DNA of 64,000 nt from Actinomadura graeca (GTDB lineage Bacteria; Actinomycetota; Actinomycetes; Streptosporangiales; Streptosporangiaceae): assembly GCF_019175365.1 (NCBI RefSeq), contig NZ_CP059572.1:2356001-2420000 (forward strand), read 5' to 3'. Positions 7,183-11,782 of this stretch are shown here, piece by piece. Positions within the stretch are counted from its first letter, which is position 1, and every line of letters begins with the position of its first letter. The notes beneath the pieces were generated by a model. It saw nothing but the letters and a program-made list of their open reading frames with translations, was not told the DNA's origin and did no database searches. A program made the translations under genes and the position numbers.

Positions 7183-7563
7183 ATGATGGAGGGTATGGCA
7201 GGTCGCGTACTGGTTTGGGGCGGTGGTGGGGTCGCGGTGGCGGCCCTCGCCGGGATGGTGGCGTACTCGGCGGCGGCGGGCCTGGACAGGGCCGACAAGC
7301 TGGCGAGCGTCGTGGGGGCCTGCGTCGCCGTGGCGGGGCTTGCCGTCGCGGTGTACGGGCTGATCGTCGACCGCCGCGCGGCCGGGGGCGACACCGCCGC
7401 GCGGGCGGAAGGCTCCGGCGAGCGCTCCAACGCCATCGGCGGCGACAACAACGGGGTCGTGTCGTCGGGGGACGGCGCCACCGTCGTCCAGCAGCGGGCG
7501 CGGGCGTCGGGGAGGAGCCGGGTCTACCAGGTCGGAGGCGACCTGCACGTCGACGGGCGGTGA
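7183..7563 (+). CDS. Small two-TM protein with C-terminal YQVGGD motif, first gene of the NACHT operon
   Basis: A 126-residue protein (ATG 7183; ATG 7195 is possible but its GGAGGG is too close). Hydrophobic segments at about 8-28 and 39-60 predict two membrane helices. A Gly/Asn/Ser-rich linker (SNAIGGDNNGVVSSGDG) leads to the last 15 residues, which contain VYQVGGDLHV. The next gene, overlapping by 4 bp (GTGA), carries a related sequence, IFQVAGDMVV, near its N-terminus. Short Q-V/I-x-G motifs of this kind at effector C-termini and NLR N-termini are known as amyloid signalling motifs (RHIM/PP-like and bacterial BASS motifs). Inference: this is the membrane effector that is nucleated by the STAND protein. 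No catalytic domain is visible. Confidence 0.72.
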   Translation: MMEGMAGRVLVWGGGGVAVAALAGMVAYSAAAGLDRADKLASVVGACVAVAGLAVAVYGLIVDRRAAGGDTAARAEGSGERSNAIGGDNNGVVSSGDGATVVQQRARASGRSRVYQVGGDLHVDGR

Positions 7564-10500
7564 CCCGCCGCGAGGGCGAGGTGACCCAGCACGGGACCGC
7601 CTACGGTTTCGCGCGGATCTTCCAGGTCGCCGGGGACATGGTCGTCCACGAGGGCGGCGGGCCCGCCCGGGGAGCGCCGGGCGAACGCGTACGCCGCCGG
7701 TGGACCGTCCTGGCCTGCGGGTTCGTCCTCGTCGCGGCCCTTCTGCCCTTCGCGCCCCTACCCGCGTGGCCGCGGTACGGGACGGCGGCGGCGCTCGCGC
7801 TGGCGGCGGGCCTCGGCCGGTGGGAGATCGCGCGCCGGGCACGCACGCGCCTGCTCGGCGACCTGCTGTCGGTCGTCGCGCCGGGCGGGAGGCCGCCCGC
7901 GGCCACCGACGTCAACCCGTACCGGATCGGCGTGTCGCGCTCCCGATACGCCGGCGACGGGCCGCGGCTGGGCTACGTGCCGGAACGCGATACCTACATC
8001 CCCCGGCACCCGTTCGACGCCGATCTCGACGCGGCGATCACCGGCGCCCGCGACCACATCGTGCTGGTCGTGGGCGGCGCGAAGGCGGGCAAATCGCGCA
8101 CCGCCTGGGAGGCCGTGCGGCGGCTGCCCCGCGCCGCGGTCCTCGTCCCGCGGCCGGGACGGCTCGCCTCGCTGCGGCGGTGCGGGCGCCTCCGGGCGCG
8201 CCGCCGGGGCCCCCTGGTCCTGTGGCTGGACGACCTGGGCCTGTACCTGACCGGCGACGAACGCCTCACCGACGCCCTCCTCCTGTGGCTCCGGCGGCGC
8301 CACCCGGGGCTCGTCGTCGTCGCCACGATGACGAGCCGGGCCTACTGGGACGTCCTCGACCCCGACCCGGCGGCCCCCGCCGCCGACACGCTCAAGGTCG
8401 TCGAGGAGGCGACGGTGCTGAGCCTGTCCCCCGGCCTGACACCCGGTGAGCTGGAGCAGGCCAGGCGGCTCTACCCGGACGAGGTCTTCCAGCGCGGGCC
8501 GGGCGAGGAGCTCGTCGCGGCCTGGGCGCACGACGAGCTGTACGAGCTGGGCCCGGACGACCCGGCGCGGTGGGCGGTGATCCGCGCGGCGATCGACTGG
8601 CGGCGCGCCGGGATCGGCCGTCCCGTCCCGGGCCGGGCGCTGGCCCGGATCGTCCCGCACTACCTGGCGGCGGAGCGCGGCACGGACCGCTTCCCCGCGG
8701 CCGCCCGGCTGGAGGAGGGCCTGGCATGGGCCCTGACCGTCCCGAAGGACTCGCCGGCGAAGGCGCTGGAGCAGGTCGAGGAGGAACCCGAGCCGTCCTA
8801 CACCGCGTTCGACTATCTCGTCGAGCGGGCCGACCGGACCGGGTCGGCGGGCCGGGGACCGCTGCCTATCCCCGCGGCGGCCTGGGCGGAGATCGTGGCG
8901 CACGCCGCCCCGGAGGACGTGCCCGCCGTGATCCGGAGCGCGCGGCGGCGCGGGGCCGGGGAGGCGGTGCTGTCCGCGGCGCTGGAGCGGCTCCGCGCGC
9001 TGCGCCCCGGCGACACGGCACCGGAGCGGCTCCCCGGCGGGCTGGAGGAGCGGCTGCATGACTACCTCGGCCGGCTGGCGGGGCATCCCGACCTGCCGGA
9101 GCCGGAGCACGTGCCGCTGGAGCTGCCGGTCCGGCGGCGCACGGACCTGGACGTGCGGCTCGGGCTGGAGCCGCCCGCCGGGGTCCGCCCGCCCGAACGG
9201 CTCGGCGCCATCGCGGCCATCCGGGAGGCGCGGCGATGCGTCCTGCTGGGCGACCCGGGGTCGGGCAAGACGACGACGCTGCGAATCCTGCTGGACGCCT
9301 TCGCGGCCGAGTCCTCCGCGTCCGGGCACATCCCCGTCTACGTCTGGCTCCCCCGCGGCGGCGGGACAGGCGGGACGGCGTCCGAGCGCGTGGAGCGCCT
9401 CATCGGCGACGCGTTCCGCCGCACGCACCCGGGGATCACCGACGCGGACGTGCGGGCGCTGCTCGACCGCGGGCGGCTGGCGCTGCTGTTCGACGGGCTC
9501 AACGAGATCGGCGCGGCGCACGCCGGCGCGTTCCTCGACGGGCTCGCGGAGGTGCTGGACGGGCACGACGAGCACATCGTCATCATCGCCACCCGGACCC
9601 ACGGCTTCGAGTCGCGGTTCGCCGACCGCCCGTTCGGCGTCCTGCAGCTGCTGGAGCTGGACTACCCCGACGGCGTGCGCGCGTTCGTCGCGGCGCGGCT
9701 CGCGCCGGGCGACGCCGACGGGATGATGGCGGCCCTGGACGCGCGGGCGCCGCTGCGGCGGCTGGCGCTCAACCCGCTGCTGCTCCATCTGATGGTCACC
9801 GCCTACGGCACCGCGGGACGGCTCCCCGGGAGCCGCGCCCGGCTGCTCGACACGATCGTCCGGGAACTGCTGGACGACCCGGCCCAGCACGCGCTCCTCG
9901 CGAGGCTCGGGTACGAGATGCGGCTCAAGGGCCTGGAGCTGACGACCGGCCAGGCCGAGGAGACGTGCGGCGCCGCGCTCGGCGGCCTCGTCCGGACCCC
10001 GCTGCTGCTGCGGGACGCGGACACCGGCCGCGTCCGCTTCTGGCATCAGACGTTCCAGGAGTACTTCGCGGCGTCCCACGTCAGCGGCGACCTGCGCCGC
10101 TACCTGCGCCGGCACGGTCGCGACCCGGCGTGGCGGGAGGTGCTGGCGCTCGCCGCCGGGCTGCTGCCGGAGGACGACGCCTACCGCTGCGTCGTGCGGA
10201 TGTGGCGCCGGGACCGGCTCCTCGCGGTCACGGGCCTGAGCAGCATCGAACGCTACGACGGGCCCCGCTGGGACAGGCTGCGGCAGCGGTTCGCGGTGCG
10301 GCTGCGGCGGCGGATCACGGTCATCGTCGGCTGGCAGCGCGGCTACCCCTACGTGCTGACGGCCTGCTACGGCTCGGCGCTCTGGCTCGTCCCGGGCTCG
10401 GTGATCGACTCCCTGCCAGGCGGCGTGCTCACGGTCGTGCCGATCGGGCTCATCGCGCTCGTCGCGTTCTTCCGCCTCTACGCGTCCGTCCTGCTGCGCT

Positions 10501-11075
10501 TCGAAAAGGTCACGGTCAGGCGCCACATACGGCCGGGGATCACCGCGCTGCGCATGCTGGACGACGTCGGCGCCACCCGCCTGCTGACGGAGCTCAAGGC
10601 GGCCATCGCCGACGACTTCACGGTCGGGAAGCTGACCCGTGCCGCCCTCGCCAACCAGCTCTTGCCGCGCTCGCGGACGCTGCGGGAGCTGGAACTGCGG
10701 CTGGCCTCCCCCGAGACCCGGCTGGAGGCCGTCGAGCACCTCGGGGATCTGGCGTCACCGGCCGCGATGGGGATGTTGCGCGACCTGCTGGACGGCCCGG
10801 ACCTCGACGACCTCACCCACGCCGCCGTCATACGCGAGCTGCTCCGGTACGCGCGGACCACGGGCGAGCCGACCGGCGACCTCGAACAGCGGCTCCGCGA
10901 GCAGGCCGGAGGCGCGGGATCCTACGTCAGGCGCCGGCGGGCGTACCGGGCGCTGCGCGACCTCGGCGCCGACGCCGCCCCGCCGAGCCGGTGGGGCGAC
11001 CCGAGGCTGGCGGCTCTTCTGGCCGTCCTCGCCGTGGTGTCGGGCCTCTACTGGTACTGGACGGGAGTGCGTTGA
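7560..11075 (+). CDS. Membrane-associated NACHT-type STAND ATPase with two P-loops
   Basis: About 1,171 residues from GTG 7560, whose last bases overlap the previous stop; GTG 7581 has a better GAGG and is an alternative. Order: IFQVAGD motif at residues 20-26; hydrophobic segment about 47-80; first P-loop GGAKAGKS near 171-178 with Walker B LVLWLDDL near 220; long helical part; second, NACHT-type, P-loop GDPGSGKTT near 564 with Walker B LALLFDGLNE near 641; the NACHT-typical WHQTFQEYFAA near 830; two more hydrophobic stretches around 928-980; HEAT-like helices; and a terminal TM at about 1150-1168. STAND NTPases are signal-dependent switches in programmed cell death and defence. No fused nuclease or protease domain is seen, so the effector is probably the coupled small gene. 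Confidence 0.85.
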   Translation: MTRREGEVTQHGTAYGFARIFQVAGDMVVHEGGGPARGAPGERVRRRWTVLACGFVLVAALLPFAPLPAWPRYGTAAALALAAGLGRWEIARRARTRLLGDLLSVVAPGGRPPAATDVNPYRIGVSRSRYAGDGPRLGYVPERDTYIPRHPFDADLDAAITGARDHIVLVVGGAKAGKSRTAWEAVRRLPRAAVLVPRPGRLASLRRCGRLRARRRGPLVLWLDDLGLYLTGDERLTDALLLWLRRRHPGLVVVATMTSRAYWDVLDPDPAAPAADTLKVVEEATVLSLSPGLTPGELEQARRLYPDEVFQRGPGEELVAAWAHDELYELGPDDPARWAVIRAAIDWRRAGIGRPVPGRALARIVPHYLAAERGTDRFPAAARLEEGLAWALTVPKDSPAKALEQVEEEPEPSYTAFDYLVERADRTGSAGRGPLPIPAAAWAEIVAHAAPEDVPAVIRSARRRGAGEAVLSAALERLRALRPGDTAPERLPGGLEERLHDYLGRLAGHPDLPEPEHVPLELPVRRRTDLDVRLGLEPPAGVRPPERLGAIAAIREARRCVLLGDPGSGKTTTLRILLDAFAAESSASGHIPVYVWLPRGGGTGGTASERVERLIGDAFRRTHPGITDADVRALLDRGRLALLFDGLNEIGAAHAGAFLDGLAEVLDGHDEHIVIIATRTHGFESRFADRPFGVLQLLELDYPDGVRAFVAARLAPGDADGMMAALDARAPLRRLALNPLLLHLMVTAYGTAGRLPGSRARLLDTIVRELLDDPAQHALLARLGYEMRLKGLELTTGQAEETCGAALGGLVRTPLLLRDADTGRVRFWHQTFQEYFAASHVSGDLRRYLRRHGRDPAWREVLALAAGLLPEDDAYRCVVRMWRRDRLLAVTGLSSIERYDGPRWDRLRQRFAVRLRRRITVIVGWQRGYPYVLTACYGSALWLVPGSVIDSLPGGVLTVVPIGLIALVAFFRLYASVLLRFEKVTVRRHIRPGITALRMLDDVGATRLLTELKAAIADDFTVGKLTRAALANQLLPRSRTLRELELRLASPETRLEAVEHLGDLASPAAMGMLRDLLDGPDLDDLTHAAVIRELLRYARTTGEPTGDLEQRLREQAGGAGSYVRRRRAYRALRDLGADAAPPSRWGDPRLAALLAVLAVVSGLYWYWTGVR

Positions 11076-11782
11076 GTCCTACCACCCTGGCGTTCCGGGC
11101 GTTCGTGCTGAGCGTCGTGCTCGCCGCCGTGCTCGACATGCTCATCAGCCAGAAGCTGCGCCCACGCACGACGAGGCTCACCGGCCCGCACGCGTGGTGG
11201 GCGCTGGCCGGTCCGGTGCGGCTGCTGCTCGGGCCCACGGCGGCGGAGTTCATGCGGTCCCGGACGTTCCTCTTCCCCGTCACCGAGCTGCTGTTCGGCG
11301 GCGGGGTCCTGCTCGCCCTCCGGGTCCTCGGCCCGGGCCCCCAGTTCGCGCGCGCCGTGATCTTCCTTCTGCTCGCCGTCCCGCTCCTGGTGATCCCGGC
11401 GCTGGCCGAGCACGCCTGGACACCGTCCGCCCTCACGTACCCGGGGATCGCCGCCGGGATCGCCTCGGGCACCCTGCTCGGCGCGGACGGCCTCGTCAGC
11501 GTGTGCGTGGCCGCAGGGGCGGCGGCCGCCGTCATGGTCGGCCTGTTCCTGCTCCGCCCGGACGCCATCGGCCTCGGCGCGGTCAAGGCCACCGTCCTGG
11601 TGGGCGCCTTCTGCGGATGGCCCGGCGCGGCCGCCGCCTATGCCGCCGCCATCGCCATGGCCATGCTCACGACCCTCGCCCTCCTCCTCGCCGGACGGGT
11701 GACCGGCGAGAGCCAGATCCCGCTGACACCGTTCCTCATGGCCGGTGGATTCACCGCCCTCCTCTGCCTCCCCCCGGGCTAG
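11072..11782 (+). CDS. Prepilin-peptidase (A24)-like membrane protein lacking catalytic aspartates
   Basis: A 236-residue polytopic protein. TTG 11072 is taken as start because it overlaps the NACHT stop (TTGA) and has GGGAG 4 bp upstream; GTG 11105 is an alternative. Six to seven hydrophobic segments are visible. The second half follows the A24 prepilin peptidase pattern: TPSALTYPGIAAGI corresponds to the IPN/LTYP region, GLGAVKATVLVGAFCGWPG to the GxGDxK-G-GW block, and IPLTPFL to the terminal IPFGPFL. Both catalytic Asp positions are changed: the Asp seven residues before the Pro is Leu, and the GxGD Asp is Ala. It is therefore probably not a protease; a membrane scaffold or sensor role in the NACHT operon is inferred. 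Confidence 0.7.
   Translation: MSPTTLAFRAFVLSVVLAAVLDMLISQKLRPRTTRLTGPHAWWALAGPVRLLLGPTAAEFMRSRTFLFPVTELLFGGGVLLALRVLGPGPQFARAVIFLLLAVPLLVIPALAEHAWTPSALTYPGIAAGIASGTLLGADGLVSVCVAAGAAAAVMVGLFLLRPDAIGLGAVKATVLVGAFCGWPGAAAAYAAAIAMAMLTTLALLLAGRVTGESQIPLTPFLMAGGFTALLCLPPG

Follow-up and report, generated by a model that had tools for sequence, protein, structure and literature searches.

A small two-transmembrane protein and an overlapping NACHT gene in Actinomadura graeca as a candidate amyloid-type signaling pair

Bacterial amyloid signaling sequences (BASS) are mostly, but not solely, found with BELL proteins, small helical bundles with one hydrophobic transmembrane (TM) helix; CHAT and TIR are also named, and an effector with two TM helices (2TM) is not mentioned, in the part of PMC7889193 that was available. 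SLATT proteins have two TM helices, are predicted to form pores, and are described as putative membrane effectors of nucleoside triphosphate-dependent conflict systems that are said to answer nucleotide signals (PMC7159879, available in part). These systems are among the closest described relatives, in organization, of two overlapping genes in a 64,000-nucleotide stretch of the genome of Actinomadura graeca (contig NZ_CP059572.1, positions 2,356,001 to 2,420,000; the whole stretch is called the window here, and coordinates are counted from its first nucleotide). The upstream gene codes for a small 2TM protein, P0001, and the downstream gene for a NACHT protein, P0002. The best explanation for the pair, to which we assign a probability of roughly 0.6, is a two-gene amyloid-type (BASS-type) signaling pair in which a 2TM hairpin has replaced the BELL protein.

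The two genes (7183-7563 and 7560-11075, both on the + strand) have 4 bp (GTGA) in common. An earlier note on this DNA had reported a Q-V-x-G-D match between the C-terminal end of P0001 and the N-terminal end of P0002, and both strings were indeed found there: VYQVGGDLHV at residues 114-123 of P0001 (nt 7522-7551) and IFQVAGDMVV at residues 20-29 of P0002 (nt 7617-7646). The 10-residue pattern given in that note was correct but too short, because the local alignment of the P0001 tail with the P0002 N terminus covers ∼22 residues (VQQRARASGRSRVYQVGGDLHV and VTQHGTAYGFARIFQVAGDMVV, respectively; score, 48); similarly, the N-terminal site in P0002 was correctly placed, with the limit of 26 residues drawn slightly short. 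When both sequences were shuffled, the score was 24.2 ± 4.5, and 48 was reached in 1 of 5000 double shuffles. Thus, the window pair has the arrangement by which BASS pairs are recognized: adjacent genes with a like motif at the C-terminal end of the effector and the N-terminal end of a NOD-like receptor (NLR).

In order to compare tails and partners across loci, 121 sequences were scanned (120 fetched loci and part of the window), in which the 2TM profile marked 117 distinct places. Of these, 25 had at least 200 residues after the second TM helix (TM2), and 92 had shorter tails; a co-directional downstream open reading frame (ORF) was called for 66 of the 92 short-tailed copies and for 26 none was called. 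Restricting the tail to 25-199 residues and the downstream ORF to at least 150 residues, with its start within 60 bp, gave 57 pairs, which were reduced to 52 at <70% identity. Tails were far more similar to the first 80 residues of their own partners (mean score, 58.2) than to those of mis-paired partners (32.1; z = 17.1; 0/20000 permutations). The cognate partner ranked first of the 52 in 21 pairs and within the top three in 30, and 44 of the 52 pairs scored at least 38. Residues 81-160 of the same partners gave a z of 0.4 (6673/20000). The motifs, which were sorted by eye into about eight types (A to H), vary between loci and agree within most pairs, for example GERSVVAQDISGIVVTGD with GARSVVAETISGTVITGD (L055), GDNIQIGR with GHNIQIGR (L056), and RDAYVAETQYFG with RDAYVAQSQYFG (L157). 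Pairing was still specific among 12 type-A pairs alone, the type to which the window motif belongs (rows likewise chosen by eye; z = 5.1; 0/20000). By called starts, a 4-bp gene overlap was present in 28 of the 52 pairs. The matched pairs across relatives point to an immune-type switch, in which a receptor would trigger a membrane effector by prion-like matching.

The type-A motif also occurs on effectors of another kind. Its profile (A4) matched in 23 of 65 genomes of the genus (E ≤ 0.01), and six small helical proteins end in it (L259, L260, L261, L264, L271, and L272, with L271 and L272 being close relatives). We take these six to be BELL-like from the description of such proteins, as worded in PMC7889193, not from a profile. 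The next gene begins with a matching motif in five of the six cases. In L259 and L264, this gene encodes a long, receptor-like TPR protein with an nSTAND5 match under the cutoff and an N terminus resembling that of P0002; the L259 neighbor has FQHAVASGFARVFQAAGDMVVYGG near its start, which is close to the P0002 motif. The same motif is therefore present on BELL-like proteins beside NLR-like genes. P0001 itself does not fit the description of a BELL effector as a helical bundle with one TM helix, as it has two TM helices and, in a low-confidence model, no further fold. In the window, a 2TM hairpin seems from these comparisons to replace the BELL-type partner. The BASS-like placement and coupling proposed in the earlier note is borne out by retention of the motif in homologues, by the co-variation in the 52 pairs, and by the BELL-like effectors with the same motif.

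The 2TM domain is also found in covalent linkage with receptor domains. In 25 loci it is fused to a long protein, with NACHT in 18, NB-ARC in 4, and some with both. By eye, TM2 leads into the next domain without a motif in 20 of the 25; exceptions are L039, which has a type-A motif, and L223, the weakest 2TM match (E = 4e-5), which has a motif of another kind. L049, L052, and L058 have BASS3-like stretches. The 2TM domain and the receptor are thus linked either covalently or by a motif, and the strongest hint as to the job of the motif is that it couples the two. That the domain is mostly without a visible motif when fused to NACHT, and has a matching motif when unfused, suggests a motif that takes the place of a covalent link. 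L052 and L058 are also three-gene clusters, in which a fused 2TM protein is accompanied by a TM protein containing ..YRTAFL[IV]D.SL.. and by a small gene whose product has a BASS3-like end (QGVQVGDNARQVNNFG in L052).

Among the 52 downstream proteins, the window included, Pfam matched TPR_12 in 27, AAA_16 in 22, NB-ARC in 14, and NACHT in 5. There were no Pfam matches for L051, L059, and L067, which are not evident NLRs. The type-A-paired partners in L059, L067, and L185 are proteins of 375-402 residues with a hydrophobic segment, none of them evidently an NLR, and they bear on the question of NLR-independent signaling amyloids, fungal and bacterial, that is raised in the available part of PMC7889193.

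P0002 is predicted to be a membrane-tethered tandem-NTPase receptor. Its NACHT match has an E value of 8.3e-6 and 26.2 bits, 0.5 bit under the curated cutoff of 26.7, and the protein database gives a precomputed NACHT assignment for this protein (entry P0025). NACHT or NB-ARC together with a P-loop is the mark of an NLR (STAND NTPase), and P0002 has it. Two Walker A patterns give the protein its tandem-NTPase look, and three TM segments were predicted (Table 1). A weak HEAT-like stretch may serve as the sensor. Among the database matches listed at E ≤ 1e-10 there were 16, one being P0002 itself; the other 15 all fall within residues 9-485, which P0002 has in common with TPR and trypsin-type proteins. 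The matches to the NACHT region include 2TM-NACHT fusion proteins (blastp). In NCBIfam, only a partial match to antiphage EruA was obtained, far below the cutoff (35.2 versus 1000 bits), and a contig scan for relatives of P0002 yielded one distant locus, L004, that was not used. When P0002 was compared with the partners of other loci (blastp, E ≤ 0.01), the type-A partners L188, L189, and L194 were matched only in residues 2-39, at 42-50% identity. This restriction to the surroundings of the motif shows it to be a mobile module of otherwise unlike receptors.

Translation of P0001 may instead start at the ATG at 7195, giving 122 residues as in database entry P0003. The protein has two hydrophobic segments, and in an AlphaFold2 (AF2) model built from 22 sequences it has two helices (Table 1) followed by a disordered tail. 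Searches of Pfam at E up to 1 returned nothing, and neither did PADLOC or NCBIfam. No SLATT was present among the families listed (25 of 27) that matched 22 members of the 2TM family at E up to 1, and P0001 had no SLATT match either. The new effector type proposed in the earlier note is supported at the level of sequence, by which P0001 is other than BELL and has no Pfam match, but the idea of a 2TM effector is not wholly new, as SLATT is in print. Among the matches listed, open-licence papers only, no literature on a 2TM effector with such motifs was found.

A protein search with P0001 yielded 22 matches at E ≤ 1, counting P0001 itself, and the relatives include Actinomadura, Nonomuraea, Microbispora, and Sphaerisporangium. 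Within the genus, 38 of 65 genomes had a match to the 2TM profile (A2) at E ≤ 1e-5 (own genome counted); matches were also present in 43 of 120 genomes sampled from the family (27 of 68 genera; E ≤ 0.001), and in 10 of 118 genomes sampled from the class (same-family genomes counted). In the family alignment, the best-conserved part is the loop between the helices, GLDxADKxASVxG, and many members have one or two motif copies in the tail. The motif, whose loss among homologues the earlier note had named as grounds for abandoning its proposal, is kept according to this alignment and to motif comparison of relatives. The closest relative of P0001 (L035, G019:C18:185000-194500; 79% identity) consists of a 2TM gene with the motif, and a neighboring NACHT gene was not called. 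L035 keeps other neighbors, which by their look are beta-lactamase-like, an MHYT-type sensor, and a methyltransferase. A search of plasmids gave one partial match, to an 11.8-Mb record labelled Nonomuraea gerenzanensis.

The RHIM core is V/I-Q-V/I/L/C-G. Likeness to RHIM and PP motifs, which the earlier note had claimed, was not upheld: the core was absent from all 24 motifs of one set and from all 38 strings of another, and in the 2 of the 38 strings with I before Q, A follows. The published BASS3 peptide is of another type. Membership of RHIM/BASS3/PP was accordingly rejected. The genus does have BASS3-like BELL genes, but apart from these pairs (L052 and L058). The string QAGRD was not found with Streptomyces in the open-licence literature searched.

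Two of the differences between the sides of the 2TM pairs have been described in the fungus Podospora. There, HET-S carries a pair of repeats against a single motif in NWD2, with 23.6% and 12.7% charged residues, respectively, and charges are noted to aid stacking of the effector repeats but might harm stacking among receptor motifs (PMC4344463, available in part). Low charge on the receptor side would therefore favor receptor-receptor nucleation, and by analogy this may hold for the 2TM pairs. Of 44 matched pairs, 20 had a second copy of the matched motif in the effector, and none had one in the partner. The sides also differ two residues past the core Q, where all 16 effectors have G and the 16 partners have A in 9 cases, G in 5, and L and F in 1 each (Fisher's test, 6.8e-5; rows include close relatives). 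In the 12 type-A pairs, 30% of residues were charged on the effector side versus 19% on the partner side (P = 0.006).

The BASS-type pair is supported directly by the overlapping genes, the matching motifs, their co-variation, the presence of the motif on BELL-like effectors, and the cis fusions of 2TM with NACHT or NB-ARC. Beyond this, we infer that the motifs fold as amyloid, that one templates the other and in which direction, that pores form or the membrane is damaged, and that the role is an immune (defense) one. In such a mechanism, a trigger would cause the NACHT part of P0002 to oligomerize, so that the N-terminal motifs cluster and adopt a beta-arch or solenoid fold. This fold would template the matching disordered tail of P0001, and the 2TM hairpins, packed in the membrane, would breach or depolarize it and kill the cell or compartment. 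If this is correct, a very simple membrane effector is added to bacterial amyloid signaling, and motif and effector are exchanged independently of each other.

The tail of P0001 also holds a motif, R1 (GERSNAIGGDNNGVVSSGDG), that is unlike the type-A motif at its end (R2) and was overlooked in the earlier note. P0002 does not match R1 (score 21; shuffles, 23.7). R1 is matched by two NB-ARC/TPR receptors of the same genome, L285 (45; 2/3000) and L286 (52; 1/3000), which do not match R2, whereas R2 is matched by the N-terminal end of L258 (62; 0/3000), a TPR protein of the same genome with no NTPase match in Pfam (E ≤ 0.001). L258, L285, and L286 are located at about 8.33, 8.30, and 5.16 Mb of contig C1. 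No other 2TM, R1, or R2 profile match of at least 14 bits was found within 8.5-12 kb around them, so that no effector of these kinds stands beside them. R1 precedes R2 also in L037, L038, and L170, occurs on the BELL-like proteins L260, L271, and L272, and is the only motif of a P0001 paralogue in the same genome (L040, C1:8841658, - strand), for which a downstream partner gene was not called. By its sequence, L287 (C1, about 2.676 Mb) is a BELL-type pair in the same genome as the window, in which a BELL-like gene, its product ending in GERSIAAHTISGVASTGDG, precedes the gene for a 1356-residue NB-ARC/TPR protein that starts with GDRSVAAREISGTVLTGN; this receptor matched R1 no better than chance (29; 301/3000). 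A tentative and rather doubtful possibility is that P0001 is a two-input hub, with R2 read by P0002 and L258 and R1 by L285 and L286, so that sensors would converge in trans by motif identity alone. Elsewhere the 2TM domain would act as an executor at the membrane in many systems, linked covalently or via exchangeable prion-like motifs to partners that are not always NLRs. If so, the two-motif tail would give access to receptor networks that may operate through prion-like codes within one bacterium.

The same 52-pair data would fit a motif that acts as a homotypic adaptor without prion-like templating, with the receptor docked stoichiometrically on a 2TM anchor that is a tether or scaffold and not a killer. 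Effector-associated domains (EADs) offer a precedent, being the same module on effector and STAND partner (PMC8195603 and PMC10907252, available in part), so that the window pair would be a case of the EAD principle in which the module is a short beta motif; the 2TM cis fusions fit a tether equally well. Such docking is nonetheless somewhat unlikely, given the Gly-rich tail of P0001, which is disordered in the weak AF2 model, and the extra effector-side copies and charge bias that parallel HET-S/NWD2. For BASS motifs so placed, formation of aggregates, fibrils, or prions has been published, according to the parts of the sources available, and P0002, with predicted TM segments of its own, would need no tether. 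A small hydrophobic ORF that overlaps a large partner gene could also be taken for a toxin, held by motif pairing to an antitoxin or inhibitor of the NACHT type. It seems very unlikely that this applies here, and the idea was rejected chiefly because there are 2TM copies without a partner gene: none was called for L035 and L040, and 26 of the 92 short-tailed copies had no called downstream ORF. In addition, cis fusions to NACHT are common.

Several results weigh against a BASS-type pair, some of them through composition. Reversed partner N termini gave a z of 3.5 (12/20000), so composition contributes to the scores, and a z of 4.0 (5/20000; mean, 25.4 versus 23.3) was obtained for 90 ordinary pairs of neighboring genes in these loci. 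Such a composition effect speaks for a chance or compositional likeness of Gly/Ala/Val-rich ends in a G+C-rich genome. Set against that are the z of 17.1 for true pairs versus 0.4 for the neighboring stretch, the 1 in 5000 shuffles for the window pair, and the agreement within pairs of about eight motif types; the mean excess of true over mis-paired scores was about 26 points in 2TM pairs versus 2 in ordinary neighbors. Chance is thus an extremely improbable explanation. Other counts against the BASS-type pair concern the window itself: its pair is not specially matched within type A, ranking 13 of 52, the P0001 tail scores higher with 9 of the 11 other type-A partners than with P0002, it lacks a second R2 copy and is therefore not among the 20 pairs with two, and the confidence of the AF2 model of P0001 is low (mean predicted local distance difference test [pLDDT] score, 54.9). 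No full-length relative of P0002 was among the matches listed (7992 scored candidates), and L035 has the motif without an adjacent receptor. Elsewhere, 8 of the 52 pairs scored below 38 (L070, L154, L161, L163, L177, L191, L206, and L208), 2 of the 12 pairs in the charge test were equal and 1 was reversed, no matching motif was found next to L260, the partner in L261 is split across two ORFs, and those in L271 and L272 are short ORFs. The two best pairs among the ordinary neighbors are low-complexity ORF pairs. The third, L072, is a TIR-like protein (by its look) with a C-terminal motif that adjoins a protein with a similar N-terminal end (score, 46), and it may be a genuine motif case.

The features of the pair are collected in Table 1. 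Downstream, a gene at 11072-11782 (+ strand), which overlaps the stop of the NACHT gene, encodes a prepilin peptidase-like protein (Peptidase_A24, E = 0.0086, under the cutoff). We presume that a GxGD motif is to be expected in such a protein; the place reads GLGA, and the product may be inactive.

Table 1. Positions in the window of the two genes and of the segments predicted in their products
Feature	Position	Strand	Basis
P0001, small two-TM protein, proposed effector, 126 aa	7183..7563	+	ORF; 2TM profile search
TM helix 1 of P0001 (AF2 helix 6-31; hydropathy peak 9-27)	7198..7275	+	AF2, hydropathy
TM helix 2 of P0001 (AF2 helix 40-67; hydropathy peak 43-61)	7300..7383	+	AF2, hydropathy
R1, first tail motif of P0001 (GERSNAIGGDNNGVVSSGDG...)	7411..7491	+	Matched by two other same-genome receptors, not by P0002
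R2, C-terminal type-A motif of P0001 (VQQRARASGRSRVYQVGGDLHV)	7486..7560	+	Alignment, motif profile
P0002, NACHT/STAND-like receptor, 1171 aa, GTG start	7560..11075	+	ORF, Pfam, homology search
Receptor-side type-A motif (VTQHGTAYGFARIFQVAGDMVV)	7581..7655	+	Alignment, blastp, motif profile
Predicted TM segment of P0002, residues 49-67, just past the motif	7704..7760	+	Hydropathy
First Walker A pattern of P0002, GGAKAGKS, 172-179	8073..8096	+	Region common to TPR and trypsin-type proteins
NACHT domain of P0002, 558-683, Walker A GDPGSGKT at 564	9231..9608	+	Pfam, pattern
Predicted TM segment of P0002, 955-973	10422..10478	+	Hydropathy
Weak HEAT-repeat-like stretch of P0002, 1047-1132, possible sensor part	10698..10955	+	E 0.024, under cutoff
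Predicted C-terminal TM segment of P0002, 1150-1168	11007..11063	+	Hydropathy

Compared with known systems, the window pair shares with the BASS/BELL systems (Dyrka et al. 2020, through the available parts of PMC7889193 and PMC8086366) the adjacent genes, the motif at the effector C-terminal and NLR N-terminal ends, the occurrence in filamentous actinobacteria, and the type-A motif on BELL-like effectors. It differs in that the effector is a two-TM hairpin, and the likeness is by description, not by the BASS1-10 profiles. RHIM, fungal PP, and BASS3 motifs have Q-V-G in the core and the NLR/effector placement in common with the window motif, but their RHIM core was never found in these motifs. 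SLATT proteins, in the available part of PMC7159879, likewise have two TM helices and a predicted membrane-effector role, but answer nucleotide signals where a tail motif is present here, and no SLATT profile matched. With HET-S/NWD2 of Podospora (PMC4344463, available in part), the pair shares neighboring genes for an NLR and a membrane-acting effector, and the 2TM family is alike in that motif copies and charge are higher in the effector than in the receptor. In that system the effector has a HeLo domain rather than a 2TM hairpin, with no sequence relation claimed, and the two tail repeats of P0001, R1 and R2, differ from those of HET-S in being of different types.

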